From a virus: a DNA stretch of 23,962 bases. Below the pieces are notes generated by a model. The model did no database searches. It was not told the origin of the DNA and saw only the letters and a program-made list of their open reading frames with translations. Each line of letters opens with the position of its first letter. Position 1 is the stretch's first letter. The DNA lies in the IMG/VR virus record IMGVR_UViG_3300043418_000137, positions 1-23,962 of that record; one strand, given 5' to 3'. The position numbers and the translations under genes were made by a program. This document shows, in pieces, positions 13,065 to 22,668 of this stretch.

Positions 13065-13106
13065 ATTGTTTTCATAGTTAATAGGATAAATAGGTTTAGG
13101 TGTTTG

Positions 13107-13140
13107 AAACCCCTTTGGCATTGCTAGAGGGGTTTTTTGT
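13107..13140 (+). terminator. Intrinsic terminator after the lysis cassette
   Basis: AAACCCCT (13107-13114) pairs with AGGGGTTT (13128-13135) around a 13-base loop, followed by six T (13133-13138). It marks the end of late transcription and insulates the following promoter at 13145-13193. Confidence 0.85.
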
Positions 13141-13144
13141 TTTA

Positions 13145-13193
13145 ATAAATTTATAATTTTATTTGTTTAGTAATTTACGTTTTACTATTTTTG
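13145..13193 (+). promoter_or_regulatory. Promoter P1 with internal 20-bp operator-like inverted repeat
   Basis: A -33 TTTG (13162-13165) is followed by a 20-base spacer and TATTTTTG (13186-13193), matching the Bacteroidota TTTG/TAnnTTTG promoter. The spacer holds an inverted repeat TAGTAA...TTACTA (13168-13187) that reaches into the -7 element. An AT-rich 13-base segment (13145-13157) lies upstream. The same arrangement recurs at 15840-15890. It probably drives the genes from 13234 on; binding would block the polymerase. Inferred from sequence. Confidence 0.75.
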
Positions 13194-13233
13194 GTTATTC
13201 TTAAACGGGGAAACCCACCTAAACCCATAAATA

Positions 13234-13488
13234 ATGGAAAAGTACACCCACATTATTAACGAATTTTTTACCGCCAACGGTTTAAACGTTGACGATTTTT
13301 TTGTAATTAACATTTGGACACGTCAAAATGAAATTGATTTTCAAGGTTGGTCAAACGCCATAGCGCGCCAAAAATTGATCGATATTGGAGCGCAGTTCAA
13401 AACGTTTGGCAAAGGTGCAACCGCTCACGAAACTTGTAGCATTACTTATTTAAGTTTTCAGTTTCGCTTTTGTTTTACATTTGAATAA
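13234..13488 (+). CDS. Small early protein, unknown function
   Basis: An 84-residue protein, the first gene after promoter P1. It has an N-terminal helix (Ile-Ile-Asn-Glu-Phe-Phe), a middle with Ile-Trp-Thr-Arg and an aromatic C-terminus rich in Phe and Cys. No family was recognised. Its start is preceded by a CCTAAACCC motif (13218-13226) seven bases before the ATG. Being first behind a repressible promoter, it may be an early host-takeover or regulatory factor; that is speculation. Confidence 0.6.
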   Translation: MEKYTHIINEFFTANGLNVDDFFVINIWTRQNEIDFQGWSNAIARQKLIDIGAQFKTFGKGATAHETCSITYLSFQFRFCFTFE

Positions 13489-14690: not shown

Positions 14691-14748
14691 TACATTTGTG
14701 AATTTTGGGATGGCATTGAGTTATTTAGTGCCGTCCTAAATTCATAAG
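14691..14748 (+). promoter_or_regulatory. TAnnTTTG-like box and leader hairpin ahead of the metallophosphoesterase
   Basis: TACATTTG (14691-14698) matches the -7 form, but no TTG lies at the right distance upstream, so promoter activity is doubtful. Directly after it, 14700-14715 and 14729-14743 form a stem of about 15 pairs with one bulge and two G-T pairs around a 13-base loop. The hairpin ends five bases before the next ATG and has no T tract, so it is more likely a translational control element than a terminator. Confidence 0.4.
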
Positions 14749-15741
14749 ATGGCGCAATTATCATTTAAAAAAATAGAAATTGAACAAGATTTCTATTCTT
14801 CAAACCTGAATTTATTAAACTTTTGCAAAGCAAATTTTGAGCATTACGGCTATGTTAGCGCGTACAGGTTTCAAAAGCAGATGCAAAAATACGGCATCAC
14901 TTTAAGAAGTCGCACAGAATATCACTTGTCCCACAAACCCGAAGCGAAAACAGAAACTTTTGATTTTTCAGAGGTGGACGATTTCGGAATCGAACCAGCA
15001 ATAGGGAAAGATTATGTTTCTGCGCGGCTTCCTGAAGCAATTAAACGCATTGGAATATTATCCGATATTCACGTTCCTTTTCATTCAATGGAAGCGCTTA
15101 TATGCACAATTAAATACCTGAAATCAAAAAGTATCGAATGCCTTTATTTGAATGGGGACGTTTTCGATTTTTATAGCATTTCGCGCCACGAGAAGGAGCG
15201 CGACCTTCGCGATCTACCGCGAGAAATTGAAATGTGCCGAAACTTCTTAGTTAAGATTCGCGAAATATTCCCGAAAATTCCTATTTACTATAAAATGGGG
15301 AACCACGAAAACCGCTGGCAAAGGTACCTAAACGATCAGGCGGAAGAATTTGCCCAGTTGCACGAAATGCAATTTGAACAATTTTTTAGGCTGGATAAAC
15401 TAAAAATTGATTTTGTACCTGACTGGCAAGGTTTCGAAATGGGTGATTTGCTAGTAGTTCACGGCCACGAAATTATGGCCGGCGGTATGAACCCTAGCCA
15501 AACGACGTTTAATAAAACGTTTTGCAATACATTACTAGGCCACGTCCATAGAACAACGGCCACGACAAAGAAAACAGGCTTTAAAGAATACATCCACACC
15601 TTTTCGACTGGATGCCTTACTTACCTTTCGCCCAAATACTACCCTTACGCCCAGCACAATCACGGTTTCGCGTTTGTAGAAATTAAAGACGGCGCGGCAA
15701 AAGTTGAAAATTTGATGATAAAAGACGGGAAAATAGTTTAG
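14749..15741 (+). CDS. Calcineurin-like metallophosphoesterase
   Basis: A 330-residue protein. Residues 1-95 are a charged, helical N-terminal region of unknown role. The phosphoesterase core carries the metal-binding signature in order: D106-x-H108, G136-D137, G184-N-H-E187, H238-G-H240 and G264-H-x-H267. These coordinate two metal ions in enzymes that cut phosphomonoesters, phosphodiesters or nucleotides. The substrate cannot be read from sequence; phage copies may act on nucleotides or nucleic acid ends. It lies just downstream of a leader hairpin and is followed by a candidate small RNA. Confidence 0.85.
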   Translation: MAQLSFKKIEIEQDFYSSNLNLLNFCKANFEHYGYVSAYRFQKQMQKYGITLRSRTEYHLSHKPEAKTETFDFSEVDDFGIEPAIGKDYVSARLPEAIKRIGILSDIHVPFHSMEALICTIKYLKSKSIECLYLNGDVFDFYSISRHEKERDLRDLPREIEMCRNFLVKIREIFPKIPIYYKMGNHENRWQRYLNDQAEEFAQLHEMQFEQFFRLDKLKIDFVPDWQGFEMGDLLVVHGHEIMAGGMNPSQTTFNKTFCNTLLGHVHRTTATTKKTGFKEYIHTFSTGCLTYLSPKYYPYAQHNHGFAFVEIKDGAAKVENLMIKDGKIV

Positions 15742-15752: not shown

Positions 15753-15808
15753 CATAGTGGTTTAGAACAGAAAATTAAAGGCTTGGGGCGTTGCTCTAAG
15801 CCTTTTTT
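15753..15808 (+). ncRNA. Candidate small RNA with 5' segment complementary to the next gene's leader
   Basis: Between the promoter-like box at 15739 and the T-tract at 15803-15808 lies a short stretch without a gene. Its 5' part holds GTGGTTTAGAA (15757-15767), which is exactly complementary to 15913-15923, eight bases before the ATG of the next gene. Its 3' part is a 13-pair terminator hairpin. A 5' seed plus terminator is the plan of bacterial antisense-type small RNAs. Blocking of translation start at 15931 is inferred. Confidence 0.45.
15777..15808 (+). terminator. Intrinsic terminator after the metallophosphoesterase
   Basis: AAAGGCTTGGGGC (15777-15789) pairs with GCTCTAAGCCTTT (15793-15805), with two G-T pairs and a three-base loop, followed by T (15803-15808). 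It ends the operon read from P1 and the candidate small RNA. Confidence 0.85.
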
Positions 15809-15839
15809 GTGCCGTAAAAATAAATTTTATAAAATAATT

Positions 15840-15890
15840 ATAAATTTATAATGTTTTTCTTGTCTAGTAAATTTCGGTTTACTATCTTTG
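15840..15890 (+). promoter_or_regulatory. Promoter P2 with internal 20-bp operator-like inverted repeat
   Basis: TTG (15860-15862), 20 bases, then TATCTTTG (15883-15890). The spacer holds a perfect 7-bp inverted repeat TAGTAAA-6-TTTACTA (15865-15884) overlapping the -7 element. It is a near copy of P1: 26 of 31 bases match from TTG to TTTG, and the 13-base AT-rich segment upstream (15840-15852) is identical. It should drive the recombination and replication genes from 15931 on under the same regulator as P1. Confidence 0.78.
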
Positions 15891-15930
15891 TTTCACAATA
15901 GCAACGGAGCTATTCTAAACCACCAAAAAA

Positions 15931-16125
15931 ATGACAACTGAAGCAAAAAATTTAAAAGTAGGAGATAGATTTTTTTATAATAGCTCTATTCAAGAAGTTA
16001 TAGAAATTACAATTATCTCAGATAAAGCAATTACTTTCAGAACAAATAGAATATCGCCTAATCCATACGAAGGAAATTTCTTTCACAGAAAAAGATTAAA
16101 TACTAAACTAGAAATTAGTAAATAA
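15931..16125 (+). CDS. Small AT-rich hypothetical protein
   Basis: A 64-residue protein, the first gene after promoter P2. Residues 8-35 (Leu-Lys-Val-Gly-Asp-Arg-Phe-Phe-Tyr) suggest a small SH3-like beta barrel. Its codons (AGA for Arg, ATA/ATT, GAA) are more AT-rich than those of its neighbours, a sign of a different origin. Its leader pairs with the candidate small RNA at 15753. No family was recognised. Confidence 0.6.
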   Translation: MTTEAKNLKVGDRFFYNSSIQEVIEITIISDKAITFRTNRISPNPYEGNFFHRKRLNTKLEISK

Positions 16126-16199
16126 CGATAAAAGTCTCACAGTATTCGTACAGAGCCCGAGCCGGAGCGGATTCTTCGGCAAACCTAAACCCCCATAAA

Positions 16200-16330: not shown

Positions 16331-16954
16331 ATGAAAAACTTAATTAAATCAGTTATTGCCGTAATGAACGAAGTCAAAGGGATTGAAAAATCGATGACGG
16401 TTGGAAACGGTAATTCTTCTTACAAGGGCGTACCCGATAAAGAAGTAAAAAAGATTTTAGGCGCAGCAATGGCAAAGAATGGCCTTTGTTTATTGCCTAC
16501 CGGTGTAAAGCCAACGATCAAAATTGAACGCTGGGAAGAAACGGATAGCTACGGGCGTACAAAAACCAAACAAACGGTATTTACCGAAGTGACGACAACT
16601 TACTTGCTTATGCACGAAAGCGGCGAATCACAAGAAATTTGCGGCTATGGCCACGGCGTTGATGCGCAAGATAAGGGCGCAGGCAAAGCCACAACTTACG
16701 CGCTTAAATACGCTTTACTTTATAGCTTCTTAATTCCTACGGGTGATATTGACGATGCGGACGCGGTGCATAGCCAAGACGTGCCAGTTAGACAGGATTC
16801 GATGAATATTTCAAGCTGGAAGTCAGGAATTAACGCCTGCGAAACCGTAGAAGCGCTAAACGCTTTGTACAAGGAAAAAGCCTCAATTATTAACAACAAC
16901 GCCGAAGTCTTGGCGCTATTTGCAGAACGTAAACAAACCCTTTTAAATAACTAG
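16331..16954 (+). CDS. ERF family single-strand annealing protein
   Basis: A 207-residue recombinase of the ERF family. The signature is at 105-144: Gly-Tyr-Gly-His-Gly-Val-Asp, then Asp-Lys-Gly-x-Gly-Lys-Ala-Thr-Thr-Tyr-Ala-Leu-Lys-Tyr (114-127) and Pro-Thr-Gly-Asp-Ile-Asp-Asp-Ala-Asp (136-144). ERF proteins anneal complementary single strands in phage recombination and genome circularisation. The usual partners, an accessory gene and an SSB-like gene, follow. Translation starts seven bases after a CCTAAACCCC motif. Confidence 0.88.
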   Translation: MKNLIKSVIAVMNEVKGIEKSMTVGNGNSSYKGVPDKEVKKILGAAMAKNGLCLLPTGVKPTIKIERWEETDSYGRTKTKQTVFTEVTTTYLLMHESGESQEICGYGHGVDAQDKGAGKATTYALKYALLYSFLIPTGDIDDADAVHSQDVPVRQDSMNISSWKSGINACETVEALNALYKEKASIINNNAEVLALFAERKQTLLNN

Positions 16955-20916: not shown

Positions 20917-21176
20917 TGGAATTAGATCAAATGTTTGAAAAAATGCAAAAGGCTTATTATAGCGCTTGTGTTTATGGGGGTGAAAAAGAATCAAGTCTTA
21001 GTTATAAAATGCACCCCATTACTTTTAAAAATTTAATTGAAGAAGCAAGAAAGGTTTCTAATATAAATTTTGAAACTAATTTAGATTTTAAATTTATGGG
21101 AATAAAAATCGAACAAGACCCATATATTCCCAACAATATTTTTATTTTATCAGGTTTACCTAAAATTGAAAAATAA
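20916..21176 (+). CDS. Small AT-rich hypothetical protein
   Basis: An 86-residue protein: an N-terminal helix, a His-Pro-Ile-Thr-Phe-Lys-Asn-Leu-Ile segment, and a C-terminal Gly-Ile-Lys-Ile-Glu-Gln-Asp-Pro-Tyr-Ile-Pro-Asn beta segment. The same order of motifs occurs in small accessory proteins of many phages, with unknown role. TAATG overlap on both sides. AT-rich like its neighbours 20389-22029. Confidence 0.55.
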   Translation: MELDQMFEKMQKAYYSACVYGGEKESSLSYKMHPITFKNLIEEARKVSNINFETNLDFKFMGIKIEQDPYIPNNIFILSGLPKIEK

Positions 21177-21382
21177 TGACAACAGAAAGATTTAAAAACA
21201 ACCTGCGCCTAAAAATCATTGAAAAAATGAAAGAGCGAAAAATAACAAACCAAGATTTAGCCGAGGCGGTCGATGTTTCGCTTACTTGTGTTAGGCAATG
21301 GGTTTCGGGCAAACATACGATTTGCTTTGAATTAGGATTACAGGTGTGTACTTATTTAGATATTGATGTTTATGAAATCTAG
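21176..21382 (+). CDS. XRE-family HTH regulator 1
   Basis: A 68-residue protein that is almost only a Cro/CI-type helix-turn-helix. Residues 25-46 (Asn-Gln-Asp-Leu-Ala-Glu-Ala-Val-Asp-Val-Ser...Val-Arg-Gln-Trp-Val-Ser-Gly-Lys) are the DNA-reading part. It starts at TAATG after the previous gene and its 3' end overlaps the next. A second protein of the same type lies at 22010. Either could bind the inverted repeats in promoters P1 and P2; which one is not shown. Confidence 0.75.
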   Translation: MTTERFKNNLRLKIIEKMKERKITNQDLAEAVDVSLTCVRQWVSGKHTICFELGLQVCTYLDIDVYEI

Positions 21383-21803: not shown

Positions 21804-22029
21804 AACCACCATGATGCATTTATTAGAAAAAATCGAAAGGATGCCTGAAAAAAACATTAAAAACTACCTTAAAATTTTAGGAATACTTTACCTTGAAGCT
21901 GAAAGAGATCAAATGATATATTTTGCAATGGATTTGCACAGAATTGATTGCAGTATTACAGGAACCGATATTTTAATTAATGAAGCAGAACAACATTACG
22001 ATAAAACTTATGGCACAGGAAACATTTAA
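21793..22029 (+). CDS. Small hypothetical protein
   Basis: A 78-residue helical, acidic protein. The start at 21793 overlaps the previous stop by 11 bases; an ATG at 21811 is possible. Residues 15-50 form amphipathic helices rich in Leu, Lys and Glu. The C-terminus (Glu-Gln-His-Tyr-Asp-Lys-Thr-Tyr) overlaps the next gene by 20 bases. No family was recognised. AT-rich. Confidence 0.5.
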   Translation: MTNKTTMMHLLEKIERMPEKNIKNYLKILGILYLEAERDQMIYFAMDLHRIDCSITGTDILINEAEQHYDKTYGTGNI

Positions 22030-22219
22030 CCAACGATTTGGCCGCAAAATGGCTATTGCTATGGCCGAAAAAAAGATAAGTCAAATTGACCTTGCTTACG
22101 AAATTAATACAACGCAATCAGCAATTTCGGCGTACATTTCCGGAAAAAATGCGCCCCGCCTTGCAACCGCTTTAAAAATTTGTGCTTACCTTGGCATTGA
22201 TTTAGAGGTTTTTATATGA
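22010..22219 (+). CDS. XRE-family HTH regulator 2
   Basis: A 69-residue Cro/CI-type protein from ATG 22010; an ATG at 21980 would lengthen the overlap with the previous gene. The HTH spans about 24-46 (Gln-Ile-Asp-Leu-Ala-Tyr-Glu-Ile-Asn...Ile-Ser-Ala-Tyr-Ile-Ser-Gly-Lys). The C-terminus (Ala-Tyr-Leu-Gly-Ile-Asp-Leu) parallels that of the HTH protein at 21176. The two are likely paralogues. It may be a repressor or anti-repressor of the phage promoters. Confidence 0.78.
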   Translation: MAQETFNQRFGRKMAIAMAEKKISQIDLAYEINTTQSAISAYISGKNAPRLATALKICAYLGIDLEVFI

Positions 22220-22563
22220 GAAACGACGAAGAACACCGTATTCAAGTAGCGATTTGTAATTACCTGAACTGGCAGAAAGTGCCATTTTATGCGGTGCCGA
22301 ATGGCGGCCAACGCTTGCTAGGCGTTGCAAAAAAGCTAAAAGCGGAAGGCCAAAAGGCTGGCGTTGCTGATTTGTGTTTAATGATTTATAATAAAACGTG
22401 GCACGGCTTGTATTTAGAAGTCAAAACCGAAAAAGGCCGATTATCGGAAAATCAAAAAGAATGGTTTCCGAAATGCGTTGAAGCTGGATATTTTTACCAT
22501 ATTGTCCGTTCGGTTGACGATGTGGTTAAAATACTGAAAGATTTTAAGGCAGATTTGATTTAG
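22216..22563 (+). CDS. VRR-NUC domain nuclease
   Basis: A 115-residue stand-alone VRR-NUC. The family's acidic core is clear: E6...Q10 in the first helix, Asn-Gly-Gly (29-31), Gly-Val-Ala-D52, E68-Val-K70 and the Asn-Gln (79-80) helix. VRR-NUC enzymes cut branched or flap DNA, in replication-repair or Holliday-type resolution. In phages they often sit in the replication region. The start overlaps the previous stop (ATGA). The stop TAG (22561-22563) overlaps the first bases of the tRNA-like gene. Confidence 0.86.
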   Translation: MRNDEEHRIQVAICNYLNWQKVPFYAVPNGGQRLLGVAKKLKAEGQKAGVADLCLMIYNKTWHGLYLEVKTEKGRLSENQKEWFPKCVEAGYFYHIVRSVDDVVKILKDFKADLI

Positions 22564-22668
22564 TCAGGTGGCGGAATTGGTAGACGCTAATATATCCATA
22601 GGTTAGAGGGTATAAACGAAAGGATAGAACGACCCTTCACCGTACAGGTTCGAATCCTGTCCTGACTA
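22562..22668 (+). tRNA. tRNA-Leu-like gene, oversized
   Basis: Acceptor stem AGTCAGG (22562-22568) pairs with CCTGACT (22661-22667). TG, then a D-arm of the Leu type (GCG...AATTGGTAGA...CGC), and a T-arm ACAGG-TTCGAAT-CCTGT (22644-22660) are all intact. The region between D and T arms is 56 bases, against about 40 in a normal long-variable-arm tRNA. It can fold as TATATCC/GGGTATA with a 10-base loop plus a long variable stem, but no normal 7-base anticodon loop is clear, so the amino acid is not certain. It starts inside the stop codon of the nuclease gene. Confidence 0.65.

Follow-up and report, generated by a model that had tools for sequence, protein, structure and literature searches.

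Two terminator-promoter modules with complementary arms at operon boundaries of an uncultivated phage

Here, we observe that two operon boundaries of an uncultivated virus share one layout: an upstream arm is followed by a terminator, a promoter, a downstream arm and the start codon of the next operon. The arms are perfectly complementary over 10 bp in module 1 and 11 bp in module 2, and flank the terminator-promoter block. We consider it rather probable that these modules are operon boundaries which silence read-through, working like the leader of gene e in T4. The whole analysis is computational and yields sequence anatomy, covariation and predicted folding, from which we infer promoter activity, read-through, translational silencing and any regulator.

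The record comprises 23,962 bases, referred to as the window, and all positions are numbered within it. The plus strand carries nearly every gene. Tail genes, a holin (PF05105) and others are located before 13064, and the lysis-end operon precedes module 1. A small operon between the two modules ends in a metallophosphoesterase gene. Module 2 is followed by a recombination/replication operon with genes for Erf, replication initiation, MmcB-like, two HTH, Holliday-resolvase-like and HNH proteins. The promoter type suggests a Bacteroidetes host, as does a match between the tape-measure-like protein and a Flavobacterium phage. The features are as follows.

13093-13102, plus strand: module 1, upstream arm GGTTTAGGTG, located in the lysis-end operon's 3'UTR
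13106-13141, plus strand: intrinsic terminator of module 1
13163-13193, plus strand: putative promoter 1, TTG-N20-TATTTTTG (box at 13186-13193), with the dyad reduced to 6 bp at 13168-13187
13216-13225, plus strand: module 1, downstream arm CACCTAAACC; the start codon at 13234 follows after a gap of 8 nt
14749-15741, plus strand: metallophosphoesterase, last gene of the inter-module operon (phrog_221, 1e-40; PF00149)
15757-15767, plus strand: module 2, upstream arm GTGGTTTAGAA, located in the metallophosphoesterase operon's 3'UTR (covariation in relatives)
15777-15811, plus strand: intrinsic terminator of the metallophosphoesterase operon, AAAGGCTTGGGGC...GCTCTAAGCCTTTTTTG
15860-15890, plus strand: putative promoter 2, TTG (15860-15862), N20, TATCTTTG (15883-15890), by the consensus TTTG/TANNTTTG (PMC6847099)
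15865-15884, no strand: reported dyad TAGTAAA-TTTCGG-TTTACTA, arms 15865-15871 and 15878-15884, perfect over 7 bp with a 6-nt loop
15895-15930, plus strand: predicted 5' leader of the recombination operon, with a small 5' hairpin ATAGC (15898)...GCTAT (15913) (-7 box numbering)
15913-15923, plus strand: module 2, downstream arm TTCTAAACCAC; the start codon at 15931 follows after a gap of 7 nt
16331-16954, plus strand: Erf-like single-strand annealing protein, encoded in the operon that follows module 2 (phrog_155, 2e-22)
21176-21382, plus strand: HTH protein 1 (Cro/CI-type), candidate regulator (PF13443)
21980-22219, plus strand: HTH protein 2 (HTH_3), candidate regulator (PF01381, 4e-12)

The promoters of both modules agree with the Bacteroidetes sigma-A-type consensus, TTTG / TANNTTTG (PMC6847099). 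A matching -7 box is present at 15883-15890 and at 13186-13193, and the -33 box, TTTG or TTG at about 19-21 nt, is represented at both promoters by TTG with N20. Promoters of Flavobacterium johnsoniae show little -33 motif (PMC6847099). The phage promoters differ from the general type in that the spacer holds a 20-bp dyad. The sequence-only reading had described 15840-15890 as the second copy of a promoter cassette, and this holds: 26 of 31 bases are equal to those at 13163-13193, while no other site in the window matches at more than 19 of 31. No further intergenic TTG-N17-22-TAnnTTTG sites occur on the plus strand of the window, and each of the two sits at an operon boundary. By these sequence marks 15840-15890 is the core of a genuine Bacteroidetes sigma-A-type phage promoter, duplicated in the genome and presumably active; start sites were placed from the numbering of the -7 box (PMC6847099). 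A scan with the sigma-70 consensus, which is uninformative for this phylum, returned a promoter count not above that of shuffles. The terminators and the flanking complementary arms, overlooked in the sequence-only reading of 15840-15890, form the conserved part of the module, and no relevant known RNA family was found in Rfam at the module positions.

Partition-function folding separates the two transcripts that such a boundary could give. In 16 of 19 rows, the leader arm of read-through RNA is predicted to pair with the upstream arm and to be unpaired at 0.00-0.14, whereas in promoter-started RNA it is unpaired at 0.40-1.00. The arm pairing was not predicted in L076 and L085. When the upstream arm region of the window was shuffled (200 trials per site), the leader was never closed to the degree predicted for the real sequence, and the medians for the unpaired leader rose to 0.62 and 0.57 versus 0.08 and 0.04. 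The read-through region of module 2 as a whole gives a folding z of -4.3.

In the mechanism that we propose, transcripts of the metallophosphoesterase operon should end at the terminator. Transcripts that leak through would hold both arms, which would pair across the terminator and promoter region, sequester the leader just 5' of the next start codon and leave the next operon untranslated from leaked RNA. RNA from the internal promoter would lack the upstream arm and keep its leader open; since this RNA alone would have an open leader, translation of the recombination operon would depend on its own promoter. The same logic would apply at the 13.1 kb boundary.

This is in good agreement with the leaders of T4 gene e, soc, 49 and I-TevI, whose start regions are masked in transcripts of upstream promoters and in no others (PMC3014915, PMC2988022). 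Here as there, the upstream arm is complementary to the start region, the promoter lies between the arms so that own-promoter RNA lacks the upstream arm, and the start region is closed in the long RNA and open in the promoter RNA, in our case by predicted folding. The phage module differs in carrying a terminator between the arms, which lie about 110-190 nt apart, in guarding whole operons by a predicted silencing, and in belonging to hosts whose mRNAs lack Shine-Dalgarno sequences. The leader accordingly has no Shine-Dalgarno sequence inside the helix, as expected for this phylum (PMC6847099); in F. johnsoniae, which is without such sequences, ribosome profiling has demonstrated that structure of the start region tunes initiation (PMC6847099). 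We thus suggest that the module works like the T4 gene e type, and membership in that type is not claimed.

A comparable logic protects the transposase of IS10 and IS50 from read-through, where RNA from the internal promoter is translatable and transcripts from outside fold over the start. The likeness lies in the element-internal promoter giving translatable RNA while read-through RNA closes the start; the difference is that IS10/IS50 concern transposon ends with no terminator in the loop, and the present modules concern phage operon boundaries.

The arms were also examined in relatives, which were gathered via the metallophosphoesterase and include contigs of 12-39 kb. In most of them, the boundary after the metallophosphoesterase is laid out in the same way; its arms are perfect over 7-14 nt and differ in sequence from one phage to the next. 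Among 23 distinct anchored sequences, 75% of the cells pair at the six variable positions beyond the anchor, and five of the six tested position pairs show double-sided changes (U-A to A-U, G-C to U-A and so on). The covariation score of 0.481 compares with a shuffled mean of 0.208 and was reached by none of 500 shuffles, and slid versions remained at or below 0.132. In a second anchored test of 33 cassettes, including a few mis-anchored rows that work against the result, 4.85 of 8 positions matched versus 3.71 after shuffling, a value reached by none of 5000 shuffles. The shuffles leave phage relatedness in place. Judging from the slid control and from how varied the arm types are, relatedness does not fully account for the pairing. 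Early arm counts had used a minimum-length filter and were replaced by the anchored and column-wise tests, which involve no selection on the tested positions.

Exceptions occur: the arms are short in G013, and some boundaries, of the type found in L005 and L069, have none. In this other clade (L005:3482, L069:3911 and similar) the metallophosphoesterase has its own promoter with another spacer palindrome, ACTAATTAGT, and a 14-nt leader without arms.

The module was searched for beyond these contigs as well. A nucleotide match to the module of this group or of the second group described below was found in none of 50,697 phage records; the same script detected no arms in the isolated phage pippi8-1; and no metallophosphoesterase relative was found in the genome collection searched for prophages with two patterns. 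Our literature search returned no such modules described for Bacteroidetes phages, which is weak evidence as subscription papers lay mostly outside the search.

Inverted repeats also flank the phase-variable promoters of Bacteroides. The arms, which are inverted repeats around a promoter, could hence be recombination sites of an invertible promoter. We regard this as very improbable: all modules found have one orientation, which led us to reject DNA inversion, the arm sequence varies freely between phages, and a tyrosine integrase was not found in the 19 records searched for this type.

A different role for the arms would be pairing in trans. In this reading, the 3' end of the upstream operon mRNA with its terminator hairpin would act as a small RNA that shuts off downstream leaders. 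Small RNAs derived from 3'UTRs typically carry an arm just before an intrinsic terminator, which is the layout of the upstream arm here, and the identical bases would serve a trans-acting 3'UTR RNA as well as cis pairing. Possible further targets exist in the window, where CCTAAACC also precedes the start codons at 16184, 16314 and 19385. Against this, own arms beat foreign arms on internal leaders clearly only in the window, G012 and G014 and not in most genomes, and duplex energies yield no consistent internal target set. In L082, the internal leader before the gene at the erf position retains AATTCTAAAC while the arm reads GTTTAGATGTTTT, and the arms remain beside their own promoter. A trans regulon was rejected because neither the own-versus-foreign test nor the duplex energies gave a consistent signal, and we judge the trans reading unlikely as an account of the arms.

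The 8-mer itself occurs in four plus-strand copies, each just 5' of a start codon (16184, 16314, 19385, and 13218), and by its sequence is a leader motif shared within this phage.

A second group of 25 loci was collected by the upstream gene and not by the promoter. Here, a dyad promoter in the same register precedes an Erf operon, and the arm, TTTTTCATAG, is different from those of the window, its complement including the start codon. The start region is predicted to be 0.01-0.41 unpaired in read-through RNA versus 0.68-0.97 in promoter RNA.

Returning to silencing of read-through in cis, a broader proposal is one that we rate slightly below an even chance: Bacteroidetes phages would repeatedly evolve insulated boundaries in which a terminator is backed by an anti-leader arm. 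The arm would drift with its leader, so that each boundary has its own RNA lock, and in some phages it may double as a trans-acting small RNA from the 3'UTR. If true, this would show how phages whose operons follow one another on a single strand hold a downstream operon silent under leaky upstream transcription, and would do so for hosts that tune initiation by start-region structure and not by Shine-Dalgarno sequences. Complementary arms around a terminator and promoter would then be a signature for operon boundaries in uncultivated Bacteroidetes phages, and compensatory mutations could test the arm mechanism directly.

The analysis separates the arms from the spacer dyad, which is recurrent in its own right. 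The perfect 7-bp repeat TAGTAAA-6-TTTACTA reported from sequence is present, but it does not lie strictly between the promoter boxes, as its right arm shares two bases (TA) with the -7 box at promoter 2. Promoter 1 reads TTG-TT-TAGTAAT-TTACGT-TTTACTA-TTTTTG in equal register, and a mismatch at the seventh arm position leaves only 6 bp. The window has 30 perfect 7-bp inverted repeats whose loops measure 3-10, versus a mean of 28.5 in dinucleotide shuffles; the frequency is thus at chance, the repeat alone is no evidence, and it must be judged by recurrence. As read from the sequence, the evidential weight lies in the conserved register inside a duplicated promoter. The near relative G011 keeps both promoter copies with dyads, but selection on the dyad cannot be deduced from it because divergence is too low (97-99% identity to the window in the two modules and the metallophosphoesterase). 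The dyad is absent from the seven more distant metallophosphoesterase-bearing relatives tested. Across the viral collection, TAGTAAA-N6-TTTACTA-NN-TTTG occurs in 43 stretches. Roughly twenty of these are promoters in which, as in the window, TTG stands exactly two bases before the dyad, and many others lie in coding frames. About half of the loci in the second group carry a perfect dyad and the other half a degenerate one (left TAGTATA or CAGTATA, or right TGTACTA), with the TACTA that overlaps the -7 box nearly constant. By these patterns the dyad is a recurrent spacer feature and plausibly an operator; relative to the arms it is probably secondary, perhaps an operator common to both promoters.

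As an operator, TAGTAAA-N6-TTTACTA would be bound by a dimeric repressor or activator, possibly a phage HTH protein, that co-regulates both operons. We hold this as a tentative and somewhat doubtful reading. The dyad is common to two promoters in the window and in G011, and the register TTG-N2-TAGTAAA-N6-TTTACTANNTTTG recurs in other phages, in some before Erf operons. In L179 (3379 on, minus strand) and L185:10353, an XRE-type HTH gene immediately follows a TAGTAAA-N6-TTTACTA promoter. The matching right half accompanies TTG-N2-TAGTAAA and TAnnTTTG in 8 of 63 distinct hits, mostly intergenic; set against this, TTTAC also occurs at 4 of the 86 background TTG-N20-TAnnTTTG sites in the fetched loci, of which some are probably related, and the right half is partly the -7 box itself. 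The loss of the dyad in the tested relatives and its decay in the second group also speak against an operator, as do four dyad-bearing phage genomes, G022-G025 (32-34 kb), which encode no HTH_3 protein. An operator role would be compatible with the arm mechanism, and both can hold.

L179 and L185 are unrelated contigs, and a dyad promoter before an XRE-type HTH gene would fit autoregulation.

The sequence-only reading had placed the metallophosphoesterase operon and the recombination operon under one regulator. The 31-bp core is indeed shared, the operons downstream of it are the metallophosphoesterase operon and the Erf-type recombination operon, both copies persist in G011, and two HTH proteins are encoded. 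What fails is the link to these proteins: among metallophosphoesterase relatives, an HTH protein of this type occurs only in G011 and, distantly, in G009, which is without the dyad. The HTH protein as binder of the dyad was rejected since co-occurrence is not consistent, and the sequence evidence weakly supports a common regulator for both promoters.

The further suggestion of a lysogeny switch is not borne out. The window resembles a CI/Cro-type switch in having a promoter dyad and two small HTH proteins, which could supply the HTH repressor; it differs in lacking a divergent repressor promoter and a consistent link between HTH protein and dyad. Both HTH genes belong to the recombination operon and share its strand, and no divergent gene is annotated at either promoter. 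A tyrosine integrase (PF00589, the type covered by the search) was not found in the 19 records, which are possibly fragments. As the HTH genes are not divergent and this integrase was not found, nothing points to lysogeny, and the switch was rejected.

Three minor observations concern other parts of the window. The first gene after module 2 (15931-16125, compare L003:3579 on) is swapped for an unrelated one in the near-identical G011, where module 2 is kept, and is also variable among relatives; from these comparisons the position right after the module 2 leader is a gene-exchange hot spot. At 14694-14749, a conserved hairpin, GGGATGGCA...TGCCGTCC, stands directly 5' of the metallophosphoesterase start codon and is altered in G011 only to another pairing version; its weak, sub-threshold match to an Rfam microRNA is due to chance. 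Finally, a 107-nt stretch at 22562-22668, absent from the ARAGORN output, matches a tRNA-like Rfam family above the gathering score and may be an odd or interrupted tRNA.
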